From: an uncultured Prevotellaceae bacterium
GTDB taxonomy: Bacteria; Bacteroidota; Bacteroidia; Bacteroidales; Bacteroidaceae
Assembly (NCBI GenBank): GCA_900316475.1
Contig: ONDA01000001.1
Location: 1 to 64,000, forward strand
Length of the DNA: 64,000 bases
Direction of reading: 5' to 3'
The notes beneath the pieces were generated by a model. That model was not told where the DNA came from. It worked only from the letters and a program-made list of their open reading frames with translations, and did not search any database. Both the position numbers and the translations under genes were made by a program. The first letter of the stretch is position 1; every line of letters starts with the position of its first letter. Shown here piece by piece: positions 1 to 30,322 of this stretch.

Positions 1-70
1 AGACAAATCATAAAACGAATTTTGACGTGGCTGATGGGAATGATCCGTCAAAACGCCCACCGAAAAACGT

Positions 71-161
71 CACGGCCGCTCGTGAAAATTTCACGGCCTT
101 AGAGAAAAATTTCACGGCCTTAGAGAAAAATTTCACGGCCTCTCGTGAAAACGTCACGGCC
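71..161 (+). repeat. 21-bp tandem repeat array, CACGGCC family
   Basis: CACGGCC occurs at 71, 92, 113, 134 and 155, an exact 21-bp period. The 14-nt spacers are variants of TCTCGTGAAAACGT or TTAGAGAAAAATTT. TCACG and CGTGA within a unit are reverse complements, so each unit can form a small hairpin. The short ORF covering it is a by-product of a 21-bp (7-codon) period. The same family recurs at about 1013, 9221, 30091 and 62563. Confidence 0.85.
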
Positions 162-299
162 TCTTTACTTGCTCATCTCGTTTCCATACATACTGAGACA
201 AACGGATATTTTTTTGAGGGATACTGCGTGAAGCAGTAAGAAAAACGATGAAAAATGAAGATTTCGGCCGAAAGATTTGGAAGGAAAGGGAAAAACATT

Positions 300-307
300 T
301 AACTTTG
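300..307 (+). promoter_or_regulatory. Bacteroidota -7 promoter box
   Basis: TAACTTTG fits the TAnnTTTG consensus. A -33-like TTTG lies at 276-279, 20 bases upstream, which is the expected spacing. The implied transcription start near 311 selects the ATG at 329 as the start of the following gene. Confidence 0.7.
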
Positions 308-328
308 TACGCAGAAATTGTTTTCATC

Positions 329-472
329 ATGAGTAATACAAGGACTATCACCATCAAGAATCCTTCCCGAAAACTGGAGGAGCGCATCCGCAAAATAGGC
401 GTTCAGAAGTATTTGTGGATTGAGCAACTGTGCTCAGACGAAACCAAGCCCACAAAAACCATTCACGTCTGA
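329..472 (+). CDS. small basic protein, unknown function (47 aa)
   Basis: I do not recognise this protein. It starts MSNTRTITIKNPSRKLEERI and is rich in Lys and Arg, with no signal peptide or membrane segment. An upstream in-frame ATG at 248 would add 27 residues, but it lies before the promoter box at 300-307, so I choose 329. The stop overlaps the next start as TGATG (470-474), so the two genes are probably translationally coupled. A basic small first gene coupled to a larger one resembles a DNA-binding partner or antitoxin arrangement, but nothing in the sequence proves that. Confidence 0.6.
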   Translation: MSNTRTITIKNPSRKLEERIRKIGVQKYLWIEQLCSDETKPTKTIHV

Positions 473-987
473 TGACAGAAGTCTATTCCCTCCACTCAGG
501 GCGGGGCGACGAGTATAAGCTACAGTTCACGACTGAGCGTAGCGGTTTTATTGCTGATGACATATTGGACCAGCTAAATGCACAAGGCATCGAGGTCGTT
601 GAAATTGGCCTGGCTCGCGTGAAAGGACAGAACATCACCGGTCATAAAGTGCTACGCCAGATAGAAGAGTGCATTGCCGACCTTATGCGGCGCAAGCCAA
701 ACGTGATATTGAGCTACTTTTGCGACTTCATCCATCTTGTGCCAAGCCAGAAGAAGGATATGCCGGTTCAGGAATACCGCAGTCGATTGTTCTCTGCCAT
801 GTTCAAGAGATACGTTTCGCAGCAGCAACAGTTTGATGTGTGCGATGATGAAATAAGAATTGACGGTGTAGCAGAGCCCTTCTTTTTCCACGTCATCTAT
901 CACAGACAACACCTGCATTATGCCGAAATGATTGCCGAAGGCCACGCCAAGGACTTTGGCAAGCCGTCAGACGCAACGAGCGAGTAA
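472..987 (+). CDS. conserved hypothetical protein (171 aa)
   Basis: This is a soluble protein starting MTEVYSLHSGRGDEYKLQF. I do not recognise the family. Visible features are an N-terminal basic and aromatic stretch, a middle acidic/hydrophobic segment (residues about 25-75) and an aromatic block containing FFFHVIYHRQHLHYAEM near the C-terminus. The ATG at 472 is preferred over 430 because it overlaps the previous stop (TGATG). The gene is followed immediately by CACGGCC repeats. There is no signal peptide, so it is probably cytoplasmic. Confidence 0.65.
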   Translation: MTEVYSLHSGRGDEYKLQFTTERSGFIADDILDQLNAQGIEVVEIGLARVKGQNITGHKVLRQIEECIADLMRRKPNVILSYFCDFIHLVPSQKKDMPVQEYRSRLFSAMFKRYVSQQQQFDVCDDEIRIDGVAEPFFFHVIYHRQHLHYAEMIAEGHAKDFGKPSDATSE

Positions 988-1011
988 AGAGCCCACGGTC
1001 TCGTGAAAACG

Positions 1012-1079
1012 TCACGGCCTCTCGTGAAAACGTCACGGCCTCTGAAAAGATATCCGCCCCTTCCCGCCGCATCACATAT
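1012..1079 (+). repeat. 68-bp direct repeat, left copy
   Basis: This copy matches 9220-9287 at 67 of 68 positions; the only difference is G at 1044 against A at 9252. It contains two CACGGCC units 21 bp apart (1013, 1034), then a unique tail ending CCCGCCGCATCACATAT. It sits just upstream of the lipoprotein operon promoter, while its partner sits just after the operon terminator. Confidence 0.9.
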
Positions 1080-1185
1080 CATTTTCTGTATGAGGAAAAA
1101 GGTAAGAAATCATGGTTTCTCGTATTTTTTTGATATGTTAGTTGTTTTTTTTGGTGAAATGTGCTGTTTTTACAAAAATAATTCG

Positions 1186-1193
1186 TATCTTTG
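1186..1193 (+). promoter_or_regulatory. -7 promoter box of the lipoprotein/legumain operon
   Basis: TATCTTTG is followed by GCAC, the commonest form of this box in the window. A clear -33 TTTG at the right distance is not visible. The first gene starts at 1280, so the leader would be about 85 nt, longer than usual here. No riboswitch fold was recognised in it. Confidence 0.65.
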
Positions 1194-1279
1194 CACAGTG
1201 GCTTTTGTCGCCGACGTCGACAGGGTCAGTGTGAATGGTAAAATATGCTTATATAGATTCAACATAAAGCAGAATATTT

Positions 1280-2368
1280 ATGCTGAAGGTAAAGAAAAAA
1301 TGGAGTATCCTTGCCATGATTGTGATTGGGGCGGTGCTGATAGCATCGTGTACCAATGATGGCGAAACCATTTACCAGCCCGACCCGAAGGATAAGGGCA
1401 GTACGGCTCCGCTGGTGGTGGTGGTTTACGACCCTAATGCCCTGGGCGACCTGGGCTATAATGACCTTATCTACCAGGGCGTGGAGCAAGCCGCTGAGAG
1501 ATACGGTCTGCGCACCATGCAGCTTTCTCCGACCACGGTGGAAGAGGGGCAGCAGTATCTCCAGTTGCTGGCTCAGGGCCTGGCCGCAACCCAGGACACT
1601 GTCCGCAGGCTGTTCATCGTGGCGGCATCCAGCTACGACGCCTACCTGCGCAGCCACAACAACCTTCTGGCATCCAGTCCAAAGACCGACCTGCTTTACT
1701 TTGAGACGGAAACGCCGCTTGAGGGTAAAGGCTCTACTTTCTTTATTAAGTATTATGGCGCCATGTATGAGGCGGGTGCCATTTCGCCAGCAGATGCAAG
1801 AAGTGTGCTGCTGGTAGGTGCGAACCCCTTGGTGAAGTCAGTAGCCGACGCCGTGCAGGGTTTCACCGACGGCTTTAATGCCAGTCCTGTTGCGACCCAC
1901 GACAACGTGGACAGAAAACTGTCCACCGTCTGGCTGTCCGATAGGGTGTCTGGTGGCTTCACCATTGCCGACACGACCGCCTTACGGCTGCTGGTCAGCC
2001 AAGACTGGGATCTCGGGCACCATCTCTTAGTGCCTATTTGTGGCGGGGCGATGACCAATTTCCGCCGTATTATTGAGATGTTCAGTCTCTGCAATTTTGT
2101 GGGCATCGACAGCGTTGCTGTTTCTGCCTATTGCAACTTCTCTGTCATCAAGCATATTGACCAGGCCGTCTACCAGTGCATTGAACAGTGGCTCTCGCCC
2201 GGTGGAATGCCCAAGCACCAGACGTTCGGTCTCGCCGACGGCTTTACTGGCGTGGAGGTTCACCCCTCTACCAATAGTGCCAAGGAGCGCTTTGACACTA
2301 TCCTGAACGCCGACCTGCTACAGCGTATTCACGAGGAAGCTATCAGAAAGGAGGCCGCCCATGAGTAA
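1280..2368 (+). CDS. BMP/PnrA-like substrate-binding lipoprotein
   Basis: Predicted lipoprotein of 362 aa: basic N-terminus, hydrophobic segment and lipobox LIASC with Cys24 as the lipid site. The body begins PLVVVVYDPNALGDLGYNDL and continues with GVEQAAERYG. This resembles the start of basic membrane protein/PnrA-type ligand-binding proteins (periplasmic binding fold type I), whose known members bind nucleosides. No ABC permease lies nearby, so it more likely senses or presents a ligand than feeds a transporter. The 3' end overlaps the next gene by 8 nt. It is the first gene of a five-gene secreted operon. Confidence 0.7.
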   Translation: MLKVKKKWSILAMIVIGAVLIASCTNDGETIYQPDPKDKGSTAPLVVVVYDPNALGDLGYNDLIYQGVEQAAERYGLRTMQLSPTTVEEGQQYLQLLAQGLAATQDTVRRLFIVAASSYDAYLRSHNNLLASSPKTDLLYFETETPLEGKGSTFFIKYYGAMYEAGAISPADARSVLLVGANPLVKSVADAVQGFTDGFNASPVATHDNVDRKLSTVWLSDRVSGGFTIADTTALRLLVSQDWDLGHHLLVPICGGAMTNFRRIIEMFSLCNFVGIDSVAVSAYCNFSVIKHIDQAVYQCIEQWLSPGGMPKHQTFGLADGFTGVEVHPSTNSAKERFDTILNADLLQRIHEEAIRKEAAHE

Positions 2369-4727
2369 GATACTATTAGCCAGAGTCCATGCGGTTGCCG
2401 CCGTCCTGTTGCTGCTGACGCTGCTGGCGTCGTGTTCGCAGGAGGATGACACCATAGCATACGTGCCTGCCCGTCACTGGGTAGAGAAGAAGGTGGCCGT
2501 GGTGGCTCCTCTGGGCGATGCCGCCACGAAGACGCGCCTGGAGCGTACGGCGGCGTGGTTCCTTGATAACTTCCGCGAGGCACAGATGAGCGACACACTG
2601 GCCATCAGCCTCCAGCTGGAGTGGCACGATGAGCTTAGCGAAGACCTTACGGCCCTGAGCACATCGCTGGCCAACCGTGAGGACATCGTGGCCATCATCG
2701 GCCCCTTTGCCAACGAGAGCGTAGCAGCCTTTGCCCCAGCCTGCATGAAGACGCTGAAGCCACTCATCGCTCCGACGGCCACCAGCGAGGAAGTCATCCG
2801 CCGCTATGCCGTCACCACCAACGGTCTGAGCACCAATGACAAGCCGTTCCTGTGGTCGCTCACCGCCAGCGACGTCGAGCTTACCAGTCTGCTGATGAGC
2901 GAGTATGCCGCCATCTGTCAGACGTACACAGCTGAACAGGCTAACGCCATCGTCTTTGCCACCGACAACACCTACGGCAAGACCTTCACCGACTGGGCGC
3001 CCTTCTTCGCGCAGAACTATGACATAGAAATCTTGGAGAACCAGACCATCCAGACGGCTGACGACATCTATACCTACCTGACGGAGTTGAGTGCTGAATC
3101 TGACGTGGGATCCGCTTTCGACTTTACCTCAGCCTCGTTCATAGCTGTTGAGACCACCAAGATGCTCTATGAGATTGCCAAGGTACGGCGCAAACTCATT
3201 ATTGGATACTACGGCACATCAATTTTCCCCTCGGCTGACCCCTTTGCCGAAGAGAACGATGCCTACTGGCCCTATCTTGTTAAAATGTATAATACGTTCT
3301 TTGCCTGCTCAGGACTGAGCGAGGAGAGCCTGGCTGCCCTCGGCCCTGACGGCCAGAAGATGCTCCAGGGCTACCAGGGCTTCTCGCCATACGCCGACCC
3401 CTCCACCGGTTTCGAAATGAGCTACCAGACGCGTTTCGGCGTGCTGCCCACCTTTGCCGAGTGTAAGTTCTACGACGCCCTGATGCTTGCCGCCTTCGCT
3501 TCCTGCTACGCAGAGCACCAGAAGCCCGTAAGCGGCGATATCAATAAGGCCATCATTGCCATTACCAGCCCTGCCGAAACGACCGGTGCGGCATGGAGCG
3601 CCACACCTATGAAGGTGTATCTCTCTGCTATGGAGGAGGGAGAGCTGATGCACTTCATCGGTGCCTCTGGCGAGATAAACTTCGACCGCGACACCTACAC
3701 TGCCGCCACGACAACCACCTATGTGCAATGGCAGATTATGAACGGCAAGATATACCACCGCAGCTACTTCGGTAGCACGGGTGGCCGCACCACCGACGCC
3801 AACGCTGCCTGGCTCTTCCTCTACAACGAGCAGCGCGCCAGCGACGACTTTATGGAGCAGGTCAGCGGAAGCGGCAATCAGCACTTCGTCTACCCCCAGC
3901 GCACCGGCCAGTATGCCGTCTTGGTTCAGGGCAGCAACGGCTATATCAACTACCGCCACCAGGCCGACGTGCTCAGTATCTACCAGTCGCTGCGCCGTGG
4001 CGGATACCCCGACGACCACATCATCCTCATCGTCGACAAGGACATGGCCAACGACGCGCAGAATCCCGAACGGGGCGTCGTGCGCACCAGCCCCAGCGGC
4101 CCCGACCTGCTCGGCGGTACCACGGCGGGCAGTGGCATCGGTGCCGCAGTGATTGACTACAACAATGCCGACCTCACCGCTGCCGACGTGGCCGACATCC
4201 TGGCCGGCCGTCAGTCAGACCGTCTGCCAGTCGTTGTGCCTCAGGGCGAGGGCAACGACGTGCTCTTCTACTGGAGCGGTCACGGACGCAGTGCGTCGCG
4301 TGGCGGTGCCGACGAGTTCGTCTGGCGCGATGCCAGCTATGGCCATGGCTTCAGTGCCGAGCTCTTCGGCCAGACGGCTCGGCAGATGAAGTTCCGCAAG
4401 CTGCTCGTCGTGGCCGAGCCGTGCTATGGCGAGTGCGTCATCCGCGCCGTCGAGGGCATTCCCGGCGTGCTGGCTATGTCGGGAGCCAACAGTCAGGAGC
4501 AGTCATGGGCCGACTGCTGGAACGACCGTGCCAGCGTGTGGATGTGTGACCGTTTCTCGCAGAATCTCGTCACTTGTCTCTCGGCCAATCCCGACACCAG
4601 TTTCCGCGACCTCTTCCTCTACTGTGCGCAGCACACCCTCGGTTCCCATGCTCGCATTGTCAACGCAGCCCACTTCGGTAACCTCTATACCACAGGCCCC
4701 GCCGAATTCATCAGATTTGATAAATAA
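2361..4727 (+). CDS. lipoprotein: periplasmic binding domain fused to legumain-like C13 peptidase
   Basis: Protein of 788 aa with two domains. Residues 1-25 are a lipoprotein signal (LLASC, Cys25) followed by acidic residues. Residues about 43-470 look like a type I periplasmic binding fold (KVAVVAPLGDAATKTRLERT, IVAIIGPFANESVAAFAP, ANAIVFATDNTYGKTFTDWA), as in branched-chain amino-acid receptors. Residues about 517-788 match legumain: YAVLVQGSNGYINYRHQADV (Asn526), NDVLFYWSGHG (His641) and LLVVAEPCYGEC (Cys688) correspond to the legumain Asn-His-Cys catalytic set. Legumains cut after Asn, or Asp at low pH; that specificity here is inference. The export signal implies action in the periplasm or at the cell surface. 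I know of no described protein with this domain order. Confidence 0.8.
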   Translation: MSKILLARVHAVAAVLLLLTLLASCSQEDDTIAYVPARHWVEKKVAVVAPLGDAATKTRLERTAAWFLDNFREAQMSDTLAISLQLEWHDELSEDLTALSTSLANREDIVAIIGPFANESVAAFAPACMKTLKPLIAPTATSEEVIRRYAVTTNGLSTNDKPFLWSLTASDVELTSLLMSEYAAICQTYTAEQANAIVFATDNTYGKTFTDWAPFFAQNYDIEILENQTIQTADDIYTYLTELSAESDVGSAFDFTSASFIAVETTKMLYEIAKVRRKLIIGYYGTSIFPSADPFAEENDAYWPYLVKMYNTFFACSGLSEESLAALGPDGQKMLQGYQGFSPYADPSTGFEMSYQTRFGVLPTFAECKFYDALMLAAFASCYAEHQKPVSGDINKAIIAITSPAETTGAAWSATPMKVYLSAMEEGELMHFIGASGEINFDRDTYTAATTTTYVQWQIMNGKIYHRSYFGSTGGRTTDANAAWLFLYNEQRASDDFMEQVSGSGNQHFVYPQRTGQYAVLVQGSNGYINYRHQADVLSIYQSLRRGGYPDDHIILIVDKDMANDAQNPERGVVRTSPSGPDLLGGTTAGSGIGAAVIDYNNADLTAADVADILAGRQSDRLPVVVPQGEGNDVLFYWSGHGRSASRGGADEFVWRDASYGHGFSAELFGQTARQMKFRKLLVVAEPCYGECVIRAVEGIPGVLAMSGANSQEQSWADCWNDRASVWMCDRFSQNLVTCLSANPDTSFRDLFLYCAQHTLGSHARIVNAAHFGNLYTTGPAEFIRFDK

Positions 4728-4750
4728 TGTTTAACCAATAATAAAACAAA

Positions 4751-7105
4751 ATGAGAAAGTTAATCTTAGGAATGACAGCCGCTTTAGCTGTAGGCGCTCT
4801 GTCATTGACGTCGTGCAGCGACAGTAATGTTGACGACAACGCGAATGTCGCCAAAAGGACATTCAACTACCAACAGTCACTCGCCGACGCTGTGGAGGAT
4901 ATTACGATCCCCCTTGACAGCTTAGAGTCGCCGGTGCAAAGCATTATCAACCCCACCGATTGGATTACTGCCACGGCCGCTACCACCTACGAAGGGCTGC
5001 CCGCAGTGAAGATTGTCACCAAGGCTATTAGCGACGGCTTGCAGAAACGCGAGGGAAAGCTTACCGTAACAGCCGAAAACGGCAACATCGCTACAGTCGT
5101 CTTCACGCAGTATGCGGCCAGCGACGGCGATGCTTACAATGGCGGCAACGATGGTGACTGGTTCAATAACTGGGAGAAAATAGATCGTGTAAAACTCATC
5201 GGCATTACCGAGCTACAGTACACGCCATGGGCCGATGGTGCTGAACTGACATGCGCCCCTGGCTACGTTGCCGGACTCACTAAAGCGAACGGCTGGGAGA
5301 TGGCCTTCAGCACGCTGAACGACCCTGCCGCCACACACACACGCTATTTTGGACTATACAACAAATACCTGGGCATACTCAGAGTGTTCTGCTACGTAGA
5401 TGACACTGGTACCACACAGAACGAGGCTGCTTTCGAGGTGCGTATGGGAACCGACGGTGACAACCGCTACCCCTTCTACAATGCACTGGGATTCAGCATA
5501 CCCACCAGCCACAGCGTGGCCAACGGAAACCTGGACCTGAGCGTGAATCTTATAGATGCGCAGGCATGCAGCAACACTTTCCACGATGTGATGTCGCCCT
5601 TCAGCGAGTCAATGACTAAGTCACTGAAGAGTGGATGGAACGTCTTCGACATCAACTGTTCCGGATACGTGCCCATGAACAGTTGGCGTACGGACAATAC
5701 CAAGAGCAGGATGTTCATCAACTGTGTCACACAGACCAACATGGCCGTATCGCTCTCCGGTAAGATTGCCGCCGACATCAACGGTACATTCCGTGCACAG
5801 GAGGTTATCCAGCACGGCGGCGTGTCGGGCTGCGCAGGTGCCATCGGCATACTGAATACCATCAACGGCATTGCAGGCGGCGTTGCAGGCACTGGCCCCG
5901 AGGGTTATGCCAGGGGCGTCATGGACAAACGCGCCTTCGAGGGTGGTGCCCAAGGCGGACCTGGAGGCTGGGATAAATTCATGATGGGACTCAAGGGCGT
6001 GGCCGGAGGCGTATCAACGGCTACATCCATTCTTTCAGGAGTACTCTCAGCACTCGATACAAAGACTGCCGCGTGGTATGACACCGTACCTGGAAAGATA
6101 AATCTCACCATGAACGGTACCATCGACCTCACCGGCACCATCAAGGGCTACAACTCCAACAATGCTGGCTTTATACAGGTAACCAAGAAGAACATTGATG
6201 CCGTCAACGGCGAAAACGGCCACTTCGGAAAAGGCATCGTCAGTCTGGCCGAGGACCCCGTCATCTGTGTGGCTAAGGAAGACATCATGGCATCGGTTGA
6301 CAACTTCAACCTCGCGTCGTCGGCGCCTGGTAAATACCAGAGCAGCGATTTCGAATCCTACGGCGCACGCCTCATCGCGTTTCTCGACCCCACGAGCATC
6401 AAACTCAACCTCAACACCGACCTCTACAAAAATGTACACGGTGTATGTGTGAGCGCTACCTACTCGGTGTTCCCCTACGGTAACTTCGGCTACACTTTGC
6501 CCTACTGTCGCGCCCTGAAACTCGACCGTCCCACCATCGACATGTCGCAGGGCGGCAGGACGGGACGCATCAAATTCGGACCCAACACCACGCCGATACG
6601 CGTACACAAGATCGAGCCTAAGGAAATCATGCTCACACAGGCCGATGACCCCGAAACCACTGCGAATTGCAAGGTCCACAAGCAGAAGGGTGCCGACTTC
6701 AGTTACTTCGGACGCCTGCAGGACATAGGCGGCAAGGACGTCATAGCACATCCGCAAGTGTACATACCCTGGAAGACCGAGAATTATCAGGAAGCCGGCA
6801 ACGACCGAGGCACCATCACCTATGCCTGTGACGGCACGATTCCCGACTTCGTGGTGGGCATCACCGTGGTCTTCTTCACTGACGAAGCACCTGGTAAATA
6901 TGTGTTTACAATGCAGTATGTTCCAAAGATAAAGCTCTTGAGTCATGACGAACTGCTGGCTTATCGCAATACGCTGCAGAATTACCAGAACAAGTGCGAC
7001 GCCGGCGACCCCGTGAGCAGACTGGCCAACAAGTCCGAGATTGAGGTGTACGACCCAGTGCCCTTGCTCGACAAGACCCTGCAGATGCTTAACAAGATAA
7101 AATAA
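4751..7105 (+). CDS. large secreted lipoprotein, possible BACON-type N-terminal domain
   Basis: Protein of 784 aa with a lipoprotein signal (LSLTSC, Cys22) and an acidic Asn/Asp-rich tether after it. Residues about 60-125 contain a pattern ending KLTVTAENGNIATVVFTQYA, which resembles BACON domains of Bacteroidota surface proteins; that is a weak match. A Gly/Ala-rich segment (about residues 355-440) and long beta-like stretches follow. I do not recognise the rest. It lies 23 nt after the C13-protease fusion and 30 nt before the next lipoprotein, so it is almost certainly co-transcribed. It could be a substrate, scaffold or ligand-binding partner of the protease. Confidence 0.65.
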   Translation: MRKLILGMTAALAVGALSLTSCSDSNVDDNANVAKRTFNYQQSLADAVEDITIPLDSLESPVQSIINPTDWITATAATTYEGLPAVKIVTKAISDGLQKREGKLTVTAENGNIATVVFTQYAASDGDAYNGGNDGDWFNNWEKIDRVKLIGITELQYTPWADGAELTCAPGYVAGLTKANGWEMAFSTLNDPAATHTRYFGLYNKYLGILRVFCYVDDTGTTQNEAAFEVRMGTDGDNRYPFYNALGFSIPTSHSVANGNLDLSVNLIDAQACSNTFHDVMSPFSESMTKSLKSGWNVFDINCSGYVPMNSWRTDNTKSRMFINCVTQTNMAVSLSGKIAADINGTFRAQEVIQHGGVSGCAGAIGILNTINGIAGGVAGTGPEGYARGVMDKRAFEGGAQGGPGGWDKFMMGLKGVAGGVSTATSILSGVLSALDTKTAAWYDTVPGKINLTMNGTIDLTGTIKGYNSNNAGFIQVTKKNIDAVNGENGHFGKGIVSLAEDPVICVAKEDIMASVDNFNLASSAPGKYQSSDFESYGARLIAFLDPTSIKLNLNTDLYKNVHGVCVSATYSVFPYGNFGYTLPYCRALKLDRPTIDMSQGGRTGRIKFGPNTTPIRVHKIEPKEIMLTQADDPETTANCKVHKQKGADFSYFGRLQDIGGKDVIAHPQVYIPWKTENYQEAGNDRGTITYACDGTIPDFVVGITVVFFTDEAPGKYVFTMQYVPKIKLLSHDELLAYRNTLQNYQNKCDAGDPVSRLANKSEIEVYDPVPLLDKTLQMLNKIK

Positions 7106-7135
7106 TTTTTTTAACCTATAAAAACAGAAAAAAGT

Positions 7136-8113
7136 ATGAAAACAAAACGATATATTAACGCCGTCACCGCACTGGTTATCGCGGCCTCTGCCTTCACTGC
7201 TTGCAGCAGCGACGATGACGACAACAGTAACAACAACGGCCAGAACGGCCAGAACGTACCCGCATCGGAGGCAGTAACCTCCTACGACGACCTGAGTTTC
7301 TTCCAGAACGCCATCGTCAGCATCGACTCCTTGGGCAACTTCCAAAAACGACACTACGGACAGCCTCTCTACGACAGCGACACCACACAACTCTATATTG
7401 GCGTGAACACGCTGGCAGAGGCTGAGAGCTTATTCCGCGAATGGGTGGCACCCAACGGCAAAGTGACGAAAACAGGCAACAACCTCACCTACCAGCTTAC
7501 CGATAACGAGGGCAATACGCAGGGCTCAATACTCTTTACGGCATCAACTGCGGGAGGCAAACTGGCCGAGGTGACACCCTCGTCGCCGACGCTGCTGAAA
7601 CACTTCAGCAAGATGATATTCCTCTCCAACGGTTCGTGGCCGTACAACTCCACGGAGGGTAAATACCGACTGGGCGACATCCGCGAGCTGAACGTCGACC
7701 ACGGCGTGAGCGGATACCACGAAAAGGTATATAACTTCGTTTGCATACGCGAAAAGGGAAACGGCGTCAACGCCATGTTCGTGGCCATCTCGCCCGACTT
7801 GTATGTACCCAAGACCTGGACACCCAGCGACCTGCTCTACGACGTGGCTGCCGTGCCCGGCGAGGACAAGGCGCTTACCATATCCAAAATACTGCGCAAG
7901 GACTGGAACTTCTTCGTAAGCTGCTTCGAGGCCGCCGGCGGGGGCAAGCTGAACAGGGACGAACTGTACTGGCTGAACAAGAAGAAAACATACCTCTTCA
8001 AGACCTGCCAGTGGTGCATAGACCTCTCAAAGGGCGACATCGACCAGTGGGACTTCCAGTGGCACAACCCCGAGAAGCACTTCCTCATGTGCATCGACTG
8101 GCTTGACGACTAA
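7136..8113 (+). CDS. surface lipoprotein, tandem paralogue 1
   Basis: Protein of 325 aa with lipobox FTAC (Cys23), followed directly by SSDDDDNSNNNGQNGQN. The SDDDD part resembles the Bacteroidota lipoprotein surface-export signal, so it is probably displayed outside. The remainder is closely related along its whole length to the next gene. Shared blocks include TPSSPTLLKHFSK, ISPDLYVPKTWTP, LLYDVAAVPGE and the C-terminal WDFQWHNPEKHF. No known family was recognised. Its Asn-rich tether is notable beside a legumain-like protease gene. Confidence 0.65.
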   Translation: MKTKRYINAVTALVIAASAFTACSSDDDDNSNNNGQNGQNVPASEAVTSYDDLSFFQNAIVSIDSLGNFQKRHYGQPLYDSDTTQLYIGVNTLAEAESLFREWVAPNGKVTKTGNNLTYQLTDNEGNTQGSILFTASTAGGKLAEVTPSSPTLLKHFSKMIFLSNGSWPYNSTEGKYRLGDIRELNVDHGVSGYHEKVYNFVCIREKGNGVNAMFVAISPDLYVPKTWTPSDLLYDVAAVPGEDKALTISKILRKDWNFFVSCFEAAGGGKLNRDELYWLNKKKTYLFKTCQWCIDLSKGDIDQWDFQWHNPEKHFLMCIDWLDD

Positions 8114-8165
8114 TCGCATCATCTATTGTACGTAACAACCACTATAAACAAACAATCAAATCAGT

Positions 8166-9146
8166 ATGAAAACAGCAAAATTCATCAACACCGTCGCCGC
8201 ACTGGCCATAGCAGCCACTGTCTTCACCGCTTGCAGCAGCGACGATGACGACAACAGCAATAACGCCCAGAACGGGCAGAATGTGCCTGTGTCGCAGGCT
8301 GTAACAGCCTACGACGACCTGAACTATTTCCAGAACGCTATCGTCAGCATCGACTCCGTGGGTAACTTCATCAGCCGCAACTATGGCGAAGCACTCTACG
8401 ACAACGACACCACACACCTCTACATAGGCGTGGAAACGCTGGCTCAGGCAGAGAGCATCTTCCGCGAATGGGTGGCTCCCAACGGCAACGTGGCAAAGAC
8501 GGGTAACGAACTCACCTACCTGCTCACCGACGTACAAGGCAGAGCGGAAGGCACCATCTTCTTCAAGGCCGCTTCGTCGGCTAGCATCGTGGCCGAAGTG
8601 ACGCCCTCGTCGCCGACGCTGCTGAAACACTTCAGCAAGGTGACATTCCTCTCCAACAGCGCATGGCCACACAACGACAGCAGCGACGAGGTGTACAGAC
8701 TCGGCGATACGCGCCGTCTCACCGTAGACCACCGTGTCTCTGGCCACAAGCAAGACGTCTATACCTTCGTCTGCATACGCGAGAAGGGACACGGCGTGAA
8801 CGCCATGTATTTCGCCATCTCACCCGACTTGTATGTGCCAAAGACCTGGACGCCCAAAGACCTGCTCTACGACGTGGCAGCTGTGCCTGGCGAAGCAAAG
8901 GCCAAGACGGTGGCAACACTGTTGCAGCAAAAATGGGACTTCTATGCCAATATCTTGAACAACATCAGTGGCGGTGGCAAGTTGAACAGGGGTGAGTATT
9001 ACTGGATTGACAAGAAAATAACATACGCCGTTTATACCAACCAGTATGCCATCAACCTTTCAAACGGACAAATAGATGGCTGGGACTTCCAGTGGCACAA
9101 CCCCGAGAAGCACTTCATCCTCGCCATCGACTATCTGAACTACTAA
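8166..9146 (+). CDS. surface lipoprotein, tandem paralogue 2
   Basis: Protein of 326 aa and a duplicate of the previous gene; signal, tether and most of the body align without large gaps. The lipobox is FTAC, followed by SSDDDDNSNNAQNGQN. Divergence is concentrated in the middle (residues about 120-180) and in the segment before the conserved WDFQWHNPEKHF end. It lies 52 nt after its paralogue and is followed by a strong terminator, so it closes the operon. Function unknown; two diverging copies fit two ligands or two protease substrates. Confidence 0.65.
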   Translation: MKTAKFINTVAALAIAATVFTACSSDDDDNSNNAQNGQNVPVSQAVTAYDDLNYFQNAIVSIDSVGNFISRNYGEALYDNDTTHLYIGVETLAQAESIFREWVAPNGNVAKTGNELTYLLTDVQGRAEGTIFFKAASSASIVAEVTPSSPTLLKHFSKVTFLSNSAWPHNDSSDEVYRLGDTRRLTVDHRVSGHKQDVYTFVCIREKGHGVNAMYFAISPDLYVPKTWTPKDLLYDVAAVPGEAKAKTVATLLQQKWDFYANILNNISGGGKLNRGEYYWIDKKITYAVYTNQYAINLSNGQIDGWDFQWHNPEKHFILAIDYLNY

Positions 9147-9176
9147 TCGCAGGCTGACGTCCTTCCCCTCTTACTT

Positions 9177-9220
9177 CCCATTACTCTCCAGTTCAATGGC
9201 AGGAGAGTAATGGGATTTTT
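9177..9220 (+). terminator. intrinsic terminator of the lipoprotein operon
   Basis: A perfect 13-bp stem (CCCATTACTCTCC at 9177-9189 with its complement at 9202-9214) has a 12-nt loop and is followed by ATTTTT. The right 68-bp repeat begins on the last T. Confidence 0.9.
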
Positions 9221-9287
9221 CACGGCCTCTCGTGAAAACGTCACGGCCTCTAAAAAGATATCCGCCCCTTCCCGCCGCATCACATAT
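9220..9287 (+). repeat. 68-bp direct repeat, right copy
   Basis: Partner of 1012-1079 with one mismatch (A at 9252). It has the same orientation and contains two CACGGCC units at 9221 and 9242. The two copies enclose about 8.1 kb holding the whole lipoprotein operon with its promoter and terminator. Confidence 0.9.
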
Positions 9288-9291
9288 TACT

Positions 9292-9312
9292 CCCCTCCCT
9301 CACAGGGAGGGG
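9292..9312. other. GC-rich hairpin over the 3' end of the GT87-like gene
   Basis: CCCCTCCCT, a CAC loop and AGGGAGGGG form a perfect 9-bp stem. It spans the stop codon of the minus-strand gene ending at 9300 and continues into GGCCGGGGGTGGG, which encodes that protein's last residues (RPTPGPSL). No T-run follows on either strand, so it is more likely a repeat or mRNA 3' stabiliser than a classical terminator. Confidence 0.5.
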
Positions 9313-10487
9313 CCGGGGGTGGGTCTATATTCTTTAGTATTCATCTCCCATATCAGCACCAGCCAGACGATGGTCGTCGGCAGGGCCTTCAGGGCGTAGG
9401 GTTCGAGCAGCTGCTTCCAGATGAAACGCGGGAAGAAGACGTCGCTGGTGCAGAGCGAGGTGAAGATGAAGGCATAGACGAGGAGCACCAATGCCCAGCG
9501 TCCGCGGCGCCACGGGGCTGTGGTGTACCACACGACGAAGCCCGTCATCGGGGCGATGTAGCCGTAGCTCTCTGTGCCGGTAGAGAAGAGCGTGACGAAC
9601 ATCGTTGCCGAGGCCAGCATGGCATAGCGGAAGGCGACGTGCTTGTACTGGCTGACGCGGCGGAAGGGCGAGAGAAACAGCAGGATGCCGGGAATGATGA
9701 GCCACAGGTCGCTGTACTCGGTGTTGCCGCTAATCTTACGCGGTATGCCTAAGAGCGACGTGTTGGTGGTGTTGAAGGCTTCGGCCAGGTTCTGCGCATT
9801 CTTCGCCACGAGCGACTCGTACCAGCCGAAATACTGCTGGACGACGTACTCCGGCGAGCTGACCAGCATCGGCAGGACGAAGAATAGGGCCGCCCAGCCT
9901 AAGCAGGCGAGGATGAACTTGCGCTTGTCCTCAACGAAGAAGAAGAACGCCAGGCCCATGACGCCATAGAGCTTGATGAAGATGTTGAGCACGATGAAGA
10001 AGGCGGCCCACACGGGTTGACGGCGCTCGACGCAGGCGAACATCAGCAGGTAGCTGGCAGCCATGGCGAGGTCGTACTGCTCGACGAAGAGCGGCGTGAG
10101 CACCTCGTGGGCACAGAACCAGAACATAAAGACCTTCTGCCACCGCTGCAGGGGCATATAGCGCACGGCCACGTAGAACGTCGCCACGAGGAAGCAGAGC
10201 CAGAGCAGCATACCCCACGTGTCGGGCAGCGAGGCGAAGGGCGCTATGACGTAGAAGAACACGGGACCGTAGTGGTTGCAGTCGCCATGCAGGTAGGGGT
10301 AGAAGTCGTAGAGCGGCAGTTGCTGCAGGGTGTTGACGAACACCGACTTGTATATCTGGTACGTATCGTTCGACTTATGCCACTTCAGGATACCGATGAT
10401 GACGGGTATCAGGGCATAGACGACGGTGATGGTGCGCCAGTCGCTCCAGAACGGACGGCGGAAGAACCTAATGACTTTTGAACGCAT
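9300..10487 (-). CDS. GT87/DUF2029-like polytopic glycosyltransferase
   Basis: Integral membrane protein of 395 aa with about nine to ten hydrophobic segments. The pattern PLYDFYPYLHGDCNHYGPVF followed by a small-residue helix is typical of the DUF2029/GT87 family. Those proteins transfer sugars from polyprenyl-phosphate donors on the outer face of the inner membrane. The ATG at 10487 is preferred over an upstream codon at 10559 because that extension lies inside the gtrA-like gene and is not hydrophobic. It overlaps gtrA by 20 nt. It is a paralogue of the gene at 10856-12034: both share HYGP, WFCAHE, IKLYG/VKLYG and EPYALKALP-like blocks. Confidence 0.75.
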   Translation of the reverse strand: MRSKVIRFFRRPFWSDWRTITVVYALIPVIIGILKWHKSNDTYQIYKSVFVNTLQQLPLYDFYPYLHGDCNHYGPVFFYVIAPFASLPDTWGMLLWLCFLVATFYVAVRYMPLQRWQKVFMFWFCAHEVLTPLFVEQYDLAMAASYLLMFACVERRQPVWAAFFIVLNIFIKLYGVMGLAFFFFVEDKRKFILACLGWAALFFVLPMLVSSPEYVVQQYFGWYESLVAKNAQNLAEAFNTTNTSLLGIPRKISGNTEYSDLWLIIPGILLFLSPFRRVSQYKHVAFRYAMLASATMFVTLFSTGTESYGYIAPMTGFVVWYTTAPWRRGRWALVLLVYAFIFTSLCTSDVFFPRFIWKQLLEPYALKALPTTIVWLVLIWEMNTKEYRPTPGPSL

Positions 10488-10905
10488 AGAATTTTTGTCC
10501 GAGATAGTTGATGACCATGAAGAGAACGGTGCCGACGAGCATCGCCACGTTCTCGACAACGGGTTTCGACAGTTGCAGGCTCTCGAGGGCAGCCCGCGTC
10601 AGCGGCAGTGCCAGACTGTAGGCAATGAGGTAGCAGACGACGATGTTCAGCGCGAACTTCACGATGCTGCGCCAGTCGGTGCCCTGATAGTGGAAGGTGA
10701 AGTGCTTGTTGAGGAAGTAGCTCAGGATGCTGCCGAAGAAATAGTCGCAGAACGAGCTGACCCAGTAGGAGCAGCCGAAGACGTTGTAGAGCACGAGCAT
10801 GATGGCCGTGCCGAAGAGCGTGTTGACCACGCCGACGACGAGGAACGTCAGGAACTCACGACTGGCGAACTGACGGAGCAGCATAGTTACGGGTATAGAT
10901 TTCAT
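10468..10905 (-). CDS. GtrA-like flippase
   Basis: Protein of 145 aa with four predicted membrane segments and the GtrA pattern: REFLTFLVVGVVNTLFG at the start, SYFLNKHFTFHYQ in the first cytoplasmic loop and a C-terminal basic tail. GtrA proteins flip polyprenyl-phosphate-linked sugars across the inner membrane. It sits between two GT87-like genes, overlapping both, so the three act as one unit. The ATG at 10905 overlaps the upstream gene by 50 nt; an internal ATG at 10884 is a plausible alternative. No GtrB partner is adjacent. Confidence 0.8.
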   Translation of the reverse strand: MKSIPVTMLLRQFASREFLTFLVVGVVNTLFGTAIMLVLYNVFGCSYWVSSFCDYFFGSILSYFLNKHFTFHYQGTDWRSIVKFALNIVVCYLIAYSLALPLTRAALESLQLSKPVVENVAMLVGTVLFMVINYLGQKFYAFKSH

Positions 10906-12034
10906 AACAGAGCTTGAGCCACACCAGCACCACGGGCAGTGCCTTCAGGGCGTAGGGCTGCACCCACTCACGGCGCAGGTAGGCCGGGAAGAGGTCGCTG
11001 GGCGAGAGACTCGACAGCACGAAGACGAAGACCATCAAGGCGGCGTCCCACCGCGTGCGCCGCCAGGGCACGCAGGTGTACCAGACGACGACGCCGACGA
11101 AGGCGATGATATAGCCGCTGGACTCGCTGCCCGTGGAGAACAGCACGACGAACATCAGCACCGAGGCTAACAGCGTCTGTCGGAAAGCCACGTGGCGATA
11201 CTGCGACAGTCGCAGGTAAGGCAGGGCGAACATCGCCATTCCCGGCAGGATGAGCCACAGGTCGCTGAACGCGAGGCCCGTTGTGCGGTGGACAAGGCCG
11301 AGCAGCGAGATGTCCTGCGCGACCGACGCCAGGTTCTCGCCGTTCTTCTCCGTCAGGCAGACGTACCACTCCTGATACTGGCCGAGGATGTAGTCGGGAC
11401 TGGAGATGAGCATCGGTGCCACCAGCATGACCGCAGCACACAAGAGCAGCGACGTCAGGAAGCGCCCCTTGTGCTTCGAGAACAGGAAGAAAGCCAGTCC
11501 GACGATGCCGTAGAGCTTGACGAACGTGCCGAGCATCACCCAGAAGGCGGCCCAGAAGTCGCGCTCGCGCTCGATGCAGTAGTAGGTGAGCACGATGATG
11601 GCCGCGATGGCGATGTTGAACTGCTGCATGAACAGTGCCGTCAGCAGTTCGTGGGCACAGAACCACAGCAGGAACAGCTGCTGGCTGTTGGTGAACTGCG
11701 ACCGTCGGACGGCCACATAGAGCAGTGCCGTCAGCGAGACGCACCACAGCAGCATACCCACCCACAGCGGTATGACGGCGAAGGGCGCGATGACCAGTGA
11801 GAAGAGCGGACCGTAGTGGTTCACGTCGCCGTATTCCGCCGGGTAGGCTTCGTAGAGCGGCTTCTGCAACCACGTATGCCAGAACACGCCGCGGAAGATC
11901 AGGAAGTTGTTGCAGCGGTGCAGCTTGGTGAGGGCGGCGACAACCGCCAACAGCATCCACAGACCACAGAGCAAACGGTAGTCGCGCAGCAGCGGGTGGT
12001 GCAGGAAGGCCGTGATTTTAGGCTTTATTTCCAT
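10856..12034 (-). CDS. GT87/DUF2029-like polytopic glycosyltransferase (paralogue)
   Basis: Protein of 392 aa, very hydrophobic, and first gene of the minus-strand trio. It shares the family pattern DVNHYGPLFSLVIAPFA and the AHELLTALFMQQFN block with the gene at 9300-10487. Predicted to use a polyprenyl-linked sugar donor in the periplasm. The -7 box at 12056-12063 on the minus strand places the transcript start about 15-20 nt upstream of the ATG. Acceptor and sugar cannot be deduced. Confidence 0.75.
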   Translation of the reverse strand: MEIKPKITAFLHHPLLRDYRLLCGLWMLLAVVAALTKLHRCNNFLIFRGVFWHTWLQKPLYEAYPAEYGDVNHYGPLFSLVIAPFAVIPLWVGMLLWCVSLTALLYVAVRRSQFTNSQQLFLLWFCAHELLTALFMQQFNIAIAAIIVLTYYCIERERDFWAAFWVMLGTFVKLYGIVGLAFFLFSKHKGRFLTSLLLCAAVMLVAPMLISSPDYILGQYQEWYVCLTEKNGENLASVAQDISLLGLVHRTTGLAFSDLWLILPGMAMFALPYLRLSQYRHVAFRQTLLASVLMFVVLFSTGSESSGYIIAFVGVVVWYTCVPWRRTRWDAALMVFVFVLSSLSPSDLFPAYLRREWVQPYALKALPVVLVWLKLCYEIYTRNYAAPSVRQS

Positions 12035-29884: not shown

Positions 29885-30322
29885 CCCGCAAGTACATGGT
29901 GACACCTCTTACACCTGACACTTAACTGCTTGAAAATCAGTAGCTGTTTTTGGAAGTTAAGTCGCACCAGTAGTCGCACCAGTAGTCGCACCAAAGGTGA
30001 CACCAGGGCGCTCGGCGACGCAAGGAGACGCATTCTTCGCAAGCGAAGCGGCAAAGCCGAGCGGCCAAGAAAAAGGCAAGAATGGTGGCAGGCCGTGAAA
30101 CATTTACGAGAGGCCGTGAAATTTTTCTGAGAGGCCGTGACGTTTTTGCGAGAGGCCGCGACGTTTCCGGCTTATGGCGTGAAACATTGTTGGAAAGGGT
30201 TAGTGCAACACTTGGTGCGACCACTGGTGCGACCATTGGTGCGACCACTGGTGTGGGCAAAATCTTCGCTAACCTGCTGATAATCAGCTTTGGTGTAAGA
30301 GGTGTCACCAAAAACTTGCAGG
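29885..30322. repeat. 438-bp palindromic intergenic element
   Basis: The ends form an inverted repeat of 31 nt with 4 mismatches (29885-29915 and 30292-30322), including a perfect 19-bp core at 29897-29915 and 30292-30310. Inside, GTCGCACC occurs three times with 12-bp period (29961, 29973, 29985). Its complement GGTGCGAC occurs three times with the same period (30214, 30226, 30238); these two 32-nt arms match at 29 of 32 positions. The centre holds a small hairpin (CTTCGC AA GCGAAG, 30035-30048) and four GGCCGTG/GGCCGCG units of 21-bp period. No credible gene is present. Confidence 0.8.
30091..30160 (-). repeat. 21-bp tandem repeats, CACGGCC family, inverted
   Basis: GGCCGTG at 30091, 30112 and 30133 and GGCCGCG at 30154 have an exact 21-bp period. 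This is the reverse-complement orientation of the arrays at 71 and 9221. It occupies the centre of the palindromic element. Confidence 0.85.

Follow-up and report, generated by a model that had tools for sequence, protein, structure and literature searches.

A C13 protease fused to a binding-type domain in Bacteroidales lipoproteins, and its candidate role in processing neighbouring lipoproteins

We analysed a 64,000-nucleotide stretch of DNA (hereafter the window) from an uncultured Prevotellaceae bacterium, comprising positions 1 to 64,000 of the forward strand of contig ONDA01000001.1 in GenBank assembly GCA_900316475.1. Near its start lies a run of five lipoprotein genes. The second gene, the subject of this report, encodes a lipoprotein in which a type I periplasmic-binding domain stands in front of a legumain-like peptidase of family C13. 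It is preceded by a gene for a BMP/PnrA-type lipoprotein and followed by genes for a large lipoprotein, here called F5, and two copies of a smaller one, F2 (Table 1).

Table 1. Features of the five-gene lipoprotein run, in window coordinates.
Feature	Position	Strand	Basis
Receptor-protease fusion lipoprotein, 788 amino acids, ATG start	2361..4727	+	Open reading frame and translation
Signal peptide and lipobox LLASC to Cys25, then SQEDD (acidic, resembling a surface-export signal)	2361..2435	+	Sequence, alignment
Type I periplasmic-binding domain (LIV/ANF-receptor type), about residues 43-450, approximate boundaries	2487..3710	+	Profile matches
Peptidase C13 domain, residues 517-765	3909..4655	+	PF01650 match
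Codon of Asn530, equivalent of legumain Asn42	3948..3950	+	Alignment with legumain, conservation
Codon of catalytic His641	4281..4283	+	106/107 homologues
Codon of catalytic Cys688	4422..4424	+	106/107 homologues
BMP/PnrA-type lipoprotein, 362 amino acids, partner; 8-nucleotide overlap with the C13 gene	1280..2368	+	Family-level PF02608
F5 lipoprotein, 784 amino acids, candidate effector	4751..7105	+	Profile searches, hydropathy, inspection
F2 lipoprotein, first copy, 325 amino acids	7136..8113	+	F2 profile at F5 and MACPF loci
F2 lipoprotein, second copy, 326 amino acids, 67% identical to the first	8166..9146	+	F2 profile
Sequence TATCTTTG, fitting the Bacteroidota -7 consensus TAnnTTTG; lies ahead of the run	1186..1193	+	Pattern scan

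The C13 fusion lipoprotein

An earlier note, made by reading the window alone, had described the second gene product as a lipoprotein that joins a ligand-binding fold to a legumain-like protease. A hidden Markov model search bore out the protease half: PF01650 matched the window protein with an E-value of 3.9e-33 (115.5 bits against a cut-off of 22.8), and it matched all 38 homologues of our alignment A1. A phmmer comparison of legumain chains with the window protein gave E 3e-20 and 75.6 bits over residues 515-775. The family profile, compared with solved C13 chains, matched legumain at 1.6e-57. The open reading frame ends at residue 788, only 23 residues past the C13 match, and there is no C-terminal LSAM prodomain. 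Because this prodomain is absent, we classify the product on sequence grounds as a C13 peptidase and not as legumain proper.

The binding half is firm at the family level only. On the window protein alone PF01094 was below threshold, scoring 20.8 bits where the cut-off is 25.4. Among the 38 homologues (E up to 0.01), PF01094 matched 30 (best 2.4e-13) and PF13458 matched 25 (best 1e-20), and the family profile matched branched-chain amino-acid binding proteins of solved structure (4gnr, E 8e-12). Judged from these relatives, the N-terminal domain is a member of the type I periplasmic-binding family. It shares its fold family with the LIV-type binding proteins (PF13458) and the ANF receptors (PF01094), but is tethered to a protease.

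The lipobox was also read correctly, with Cys25 kept in 38/38 homologues. At least two Asp or Glu residues occur among the seven residues after this Cys in 30 of them. Acidic residues after the lipid-anchored Cys are a signal for the cell surface, a rule drawn in part from papers cited in PMC9308784. This suggests a surface location for the fusion lipoprotein.

For conservation within the family we used 107 non-redundant C13 genes, which are 129 genes from loci chosen for retrieval minus 95% near-copies. One row, L131, was excluded for an internal stop; the partial matches L094, L103, L111, L115 and L137 lay outside the internal-stop check, and near-copies of at least 88% were left out of alignment A2. 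Catalytic roles had been proposed for Asn526, His641 and Cys688. The His and the Cys are present in all of A1 and each in 106 of the 107 genes. Asn526 had to be given up as the catalytic Asn, since it is Asn in only 7/38 (A1) and 34/107. The conserved residue is instead Asn530, in the motif NYRH (36/38 and 101/107), and alignment with legumain pairs Asn42 with this position and not with Asn526. The human number 42 presumably holds, as we take the aligned legumain chain to start at residue 26.

The residues of the legumain S1 pocket are Arg44, His45, Ser216 and Asp231 (PMC4357240). Their equivalents R532, H533, S715 and D730 are all present in the window protein, and the protease is therefore predicted to cut after Asn or Asp. 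Across the 107 genes, R532 and S715 are invariant and H533 is kept in 101 (Phe or Tyr in 6), while position 730 is Asp in 71, Asn in 35 and Thr in one. The window protein thus resembles legumain in its catalytic His and Cys and in the equivalents of Asn42 and the four S1 residues. It differs in being bacterial, lipid-anchored, placed behind a binding domain and free of the prodomain. The one gene of the 107 that has lost the catalytic His and Cys is L171_4 (L171 8344-10557), where Asn and Ser replace them. A BMP match is also missing upstream of it, and it is likely a dead or re-purposed copy.

Kinship with legumain bears on a second possible activity. As a transpeptidase, the protein could ligate or attach surface proteins in the manner of GPI transamidase and the plant asparaginyl ligases, with which it shares a peptidase family. 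Indeed, the family profile matched GPI8 (best E 6.5e-50) and plant ligases. Legumain was matched better than GPI8, which is a weak point against ligation. The F5, F2 and MACPF proteins of these loci bear their own lipoboxes, so a second anchor would be unneeded, and no finding here favours ligation over hydrolysis. We consider ligation very improbable.

The fusion is not unique to the window. A homologue was found in 43/251 genomes of the window's family, the window's own genome (with one C13 match) included; this count includes fragments (G157, G216), and both halves of the protein were matched in 38 of the 43. In the order sample of 295 genomes, matches of at least 590 bits spanning both domains occurred in six, again counting the window's own. 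In the phylum sample of 395 genomes, 10 had a C13 match; apart from the window's own, none of these scored above 48 bits. Named genomes, when scanned, yielded 444 relatives, and nearly all of the best 80 bear the titles Prevotella, Prevotellaceae, Bacteroidaceae, Bacteroidia or Bacteroidales. A ruminant host or the rumen is named in 26 of these 80 titles, and 26 others carry RUG or RUI codes, which we take to denote rumen collections. By these matches, the fusion lipoprotein is conserved in gut and rumen Bacteroidales, in keeping with the earlier view of an exported bacterial C13 domain behind a ligand-receptor fold. The domain order had been called undescribed, and we found no description of a receptor-C13 fusion among the literature matches listed. 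A search for carriage of the C13 gene on plasmids or phages gave no match.

The BMP/PnrA-type partner gene

The gene that overlaps the start of the C13 gene encodes a second lipoprotein of a binding-protein type. PF02608 on this window protein alone fell below the cut-off (E 0.0052), but the profile matched 20/24 of its relatives (best 4e-19), and comparison of the family with solved structures identified Lbp (9.4e-21) and TmpC (5.8e-14). A BMP profile matched within 1.6 kb upstream of the C13 gene in 96/107 loci. Of the 11 loci lacking this match, four have less than 260 nucleotides of upstream sequence and a fifth has 975. The two genes overlap in 80 of 86 called pairs, an upper figure because the starts of reading frames were taken as the earliest possible.

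The BMP family occurred in 39 of the 251 family genomes, and all 39 were among the 43 C13 genomes. This co-occurrence carries a bias, as the profile was derived from C13-adjacent members and remote BMP relatives elsewhere could for that reason be missed. The likely unit thus consists of two binding-type lipoproteins, and one of the two bears the protease. At three loci (L060, L114 and L119) we observed BMP-C13 gene pairs in tandem.

Binding folds of the LIV and BMP types normally serve ABC transporters. The pair might accordingly scavenge nutrient peptides, with ligand binding and peptide cleavage feeding uptake. By a crude test, however, a same-strand neighbour with at least five hydrophobic segments lay within three genes in 6/107 C13 loci, leaving 101 with no such permease-like gene in that range. 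Because such neighbours are rare, a transport role is unlikely, and the acidic residues after the lipobox Cys point to the cell surface instead of the periplasm. We therefore regard scavenging as very improbable.

MACPF and F5 lipoproteins beside the C13 genes

Two families of large lipoproteins recur next to the pair. Within six genes on the strand of the C13 gene, MACPF genes were found at 21 of the 107 C13 genes, F5 genes at 24 and neither at 62. These neighbour counts rest on a simple caller of open reading frames and on chosen loci, and they include some short contigs. Because some genes are paired in tandem, the 21 MACPF-labelled genes represent 18 loci. Among the 24 F5 labels, two (L085, L130) rest on short frames.

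The MACPF assignment is clear. PF01823 matched 20/20 members of the neighbour alignment A5, and relatives among solved structures include complement C6 and perforin. The C13-linked MACPF lipoproteins number one to three per locus, and one of them usually exceeds 700 amino acids. In the 251 family genomes, the Pfam profile detected MACPF proteins in 21, of which 15 have the C13 gene and 6 lack it (Fisher p 8e-9, a value that overstates independence because the genomes are related). These genomes contain 39 MACPF matches, and 29 of them have a C13 match no farther than about 7 kb away. Two more, in G235, adjoin a BMP gene at the start of a contig, and the remaining eight lie elsewhere, seven in the six C13-less genomes and one in G219. 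The MACPF proteins of the C13-less genomes have 432-566 amino acids and lie apart. They are candidate BSAPs, which are antimicrobial MACPF surface lipoproteins of Bacteroidales (PMC12853789).

In the window, the corresponding position is held by F5. It has a weak BACON-like match near its N-terminus, and its body gave no significant Pfam or PDB match. By eye, two strands of alternating pattern in the body enclose a Gly/Ala-rich stretch. Of the 11 strongest F5 matches in the 251 genomes, 10 adjoin C13, and 24 weaker matches lie elsewhere; the profile was derived from C13-adjacent members, and this linkage figure carries that bias. One relative away from C13, of about 1000 amino acids, is in the window's own genome (L194 902-3928, G000:C74). 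The F2 profile matched at 22 of the 24 F5 C13 genes and at 9 of the 21 MACPF ones.

F5 loci mostly lack MACPF genes, and the two families exchange with one another over the C13 tree. On a quick tree of the 107 proteins, which has several long branches, 7 changes are needed to account for the MACPF and F5 labels. For example, the sister proteins L079 (F5) and L081 (MACPF) are joined with a support of 100.

Linkage to MACPF genes admits a defensive role, in which a receptor-triggered protease would destroy incoming toxins or guard the cell against the co-encoded MACPF protein. A precedent for protection is a CDCL operon that includes a surface lipoprotein shielding the producer (PMC11169675). 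Against defence, MACPF is absent from most F5 loci, and the protease is the activator in the C11 precedents (PMC9308784, PMC11169675). An immunity function thus seems improbable.

The pair could also be a general maturation or shedding protease that trims or frees many surface lipoproteins, with MACPF and F5 proteins as some of its substrates. Fragipain of B. fragilis, which releases many surface proteins (PMC9308784), would be the model. The 62 C13 genes with neither family nearby are consistent with this, as are the varied neighbours, which at some loci are giant leucine-rich repeat (LRR) proteins. Linkage to MACPF across the 251 genomes would be unexpected for a general protease, and 208 of these genomes do without a C13 homologue. 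We regard this explanation as doubtful, though far from negligible.

Proposed mechanism and surroundings of the locus

The earlier note had offered ligand-gated proteolysis or transpeptidation of surface proteins. The partner gene and the recurrent MACPF and F5 neighbours speak more for the processing of lipoproteins encoded at the same locus. In our best reading, to which we give somewhat less than an even chance, the protein is a surface protease under receptor control, and the lipoproteins that it matures are co-encoded and probably form pores. The type I domain, probably acting with the BMP-type lipoprotein, would sense an extracellular small molecule. Gating by a receptor is suggested by the fusion of receptor and protease and by the BMP partner. 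The C13 protease would then cut the adjacent large lipoproteins, probably after Asn. Its substrates would be the one to three MACPF lipoproteins in some members of the family and F5 in the window, where F5 would take a place comparable to that of the MACPF lipoproteins. If the cut falls in the linker that follows the N-terminal BACON-like domain, it would set free or activate a pore-forming effector, which might be used against neighbouring cells.

We propose this cutting by analogy with C11 proteases. Surface proteases of this family activate the toxin BcpT (PMC9308784) and two-component CDCL pore formers on the target cell (PMC11169675). Fragipain and doripain B, which act on these proteins, are likewise Bacteroidales lipoproteins and proteases of clan CD, and the antibacterial proteins that they activate include two-component pore formers. 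They differ in belonging to C11, in cutting after Arg or Lys and in acting on a toxin that is encoded apart, and the passages on them describe no receptor domain. The system of the window, in contrast, is of family C13, linked to its candidate effectors and fused to a receptor. In bacterial caspase-gasdermin pairs, a caspase-fold protease is encoded beside a pore-forming protein and both act inside the cell; here, exported lipoproteins and MACPF proteins would be involved.

A motif in the long MACPF proteins could mark the cleavage site. Within the 28 residues that precede the MACPF part, the pattern D/E/G-(x)-N-small occurs in 16/16 readable proteins of at least 700 amino acids and in 2/9 shorter ones, against a background of 0.24; it was defined after the sequences were seen. 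L058_4 and L202_4 (long MACPF proteins) and 12 shorter ones were left out of this reading, as the start pattern was unmatched. The looser criterion of any Asn in the linker was uninformative (16/16 long and 7/9 short, against a background of 0.85), and long proteins are told apart from short ones by the narrower pattern alone.

Several results weigh against the maturation of co-encoded pore formers. The largest group of C13 genes, 62 of 107, has neither candidate substrate nearby, so the pair may have a broader function. The equivalent of Asp231 (D730) is Asn in 15 of the 21 C13 genes at MACPF loci, so specificity may differ there. BACON matches were found in 11/20 MACPF members and in 4/22 F5 members. 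F5 as a divergent MACPF protein was unsupported by Pfam, by PDB profiles and by hhalign, and at E up to 0.1 none of the 22 F5 members matched PF01823. Hydropathy revealed no membrane segment that sets F5 apart. In hhalign, F5 and MACPF aligned over the N-terminal part only, at 96.4%, a figure inflated by the signal peptide, as F5 gave 92.9% with an unrelated lipoprotein family over 37 signal-peptide columns. A linker Asn does not mark C13-linked F5 proteins, since homologues away from C13 share it. Finally, CDCL is activated by a protease of the target cell, and the toxin and this protease are encoded apart (PMC11169675).

A bolder version of receptor-gated maturation seems unlikely to us. Here two binding-protein receptors would gate a caspase-fold, legumain-type protease on the cell surface. 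It would cut the co-encoded multi-component MACPF lipoproteins, or F5, at a linker Asn ahead of the effector part, so that an extracellular ligand switches on killing by a self-contained bacterial equivalent of sensor-triggered perforin systems. The F5 lipoproteins would then be a new class of pore formers, exchangeable with MACPF proteins. Some antibacterial pore formers of gut Bacteroidota need clan CD surface proteases, which in the C11 papers cited are of family C11, with the toxin encoded apart. If receptor-gated maturation is correct, some gut and rumen bacteria switch on such weapons upon a signal. The locus would also offer a bacterial system for work on legumain-type activity, and a way to test the nature of F5.

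A few features of the surroundings were noted. No RNA families were found in positions 1-9500 of the window. The sequence TATCTTTG upstream of the run matches TAnnTTTG, which we take to be the Bacteroidota -7 promoter consensus. A longer pattern, TANNTTTGCACA, has 2 matches in the 64 kb against 0.06 expected; the scan covered the -7 element. Of 122 C13 genes, 16 have a member of gene cluster f6 (L149 4660-6471 and similar) on their strand and no more than five genes away; a single member was checked and proved to be an AraC-type regulator. Directly after the run follow two related minus-strand genes of cluster f43 (9300-10559 and 10856-12034). Single and tandem copies of a 21-base unit, CGTGAAAACGTCACGGCCTCT, are present at 144-164, 1002-1043, 9231-9251 and 30130-30150. 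The unit has 50 copies in the genome (at most 2 mismatches) against 0 for the reversed control, and its copies lie on both sides of the five-gene lipoprotein run.

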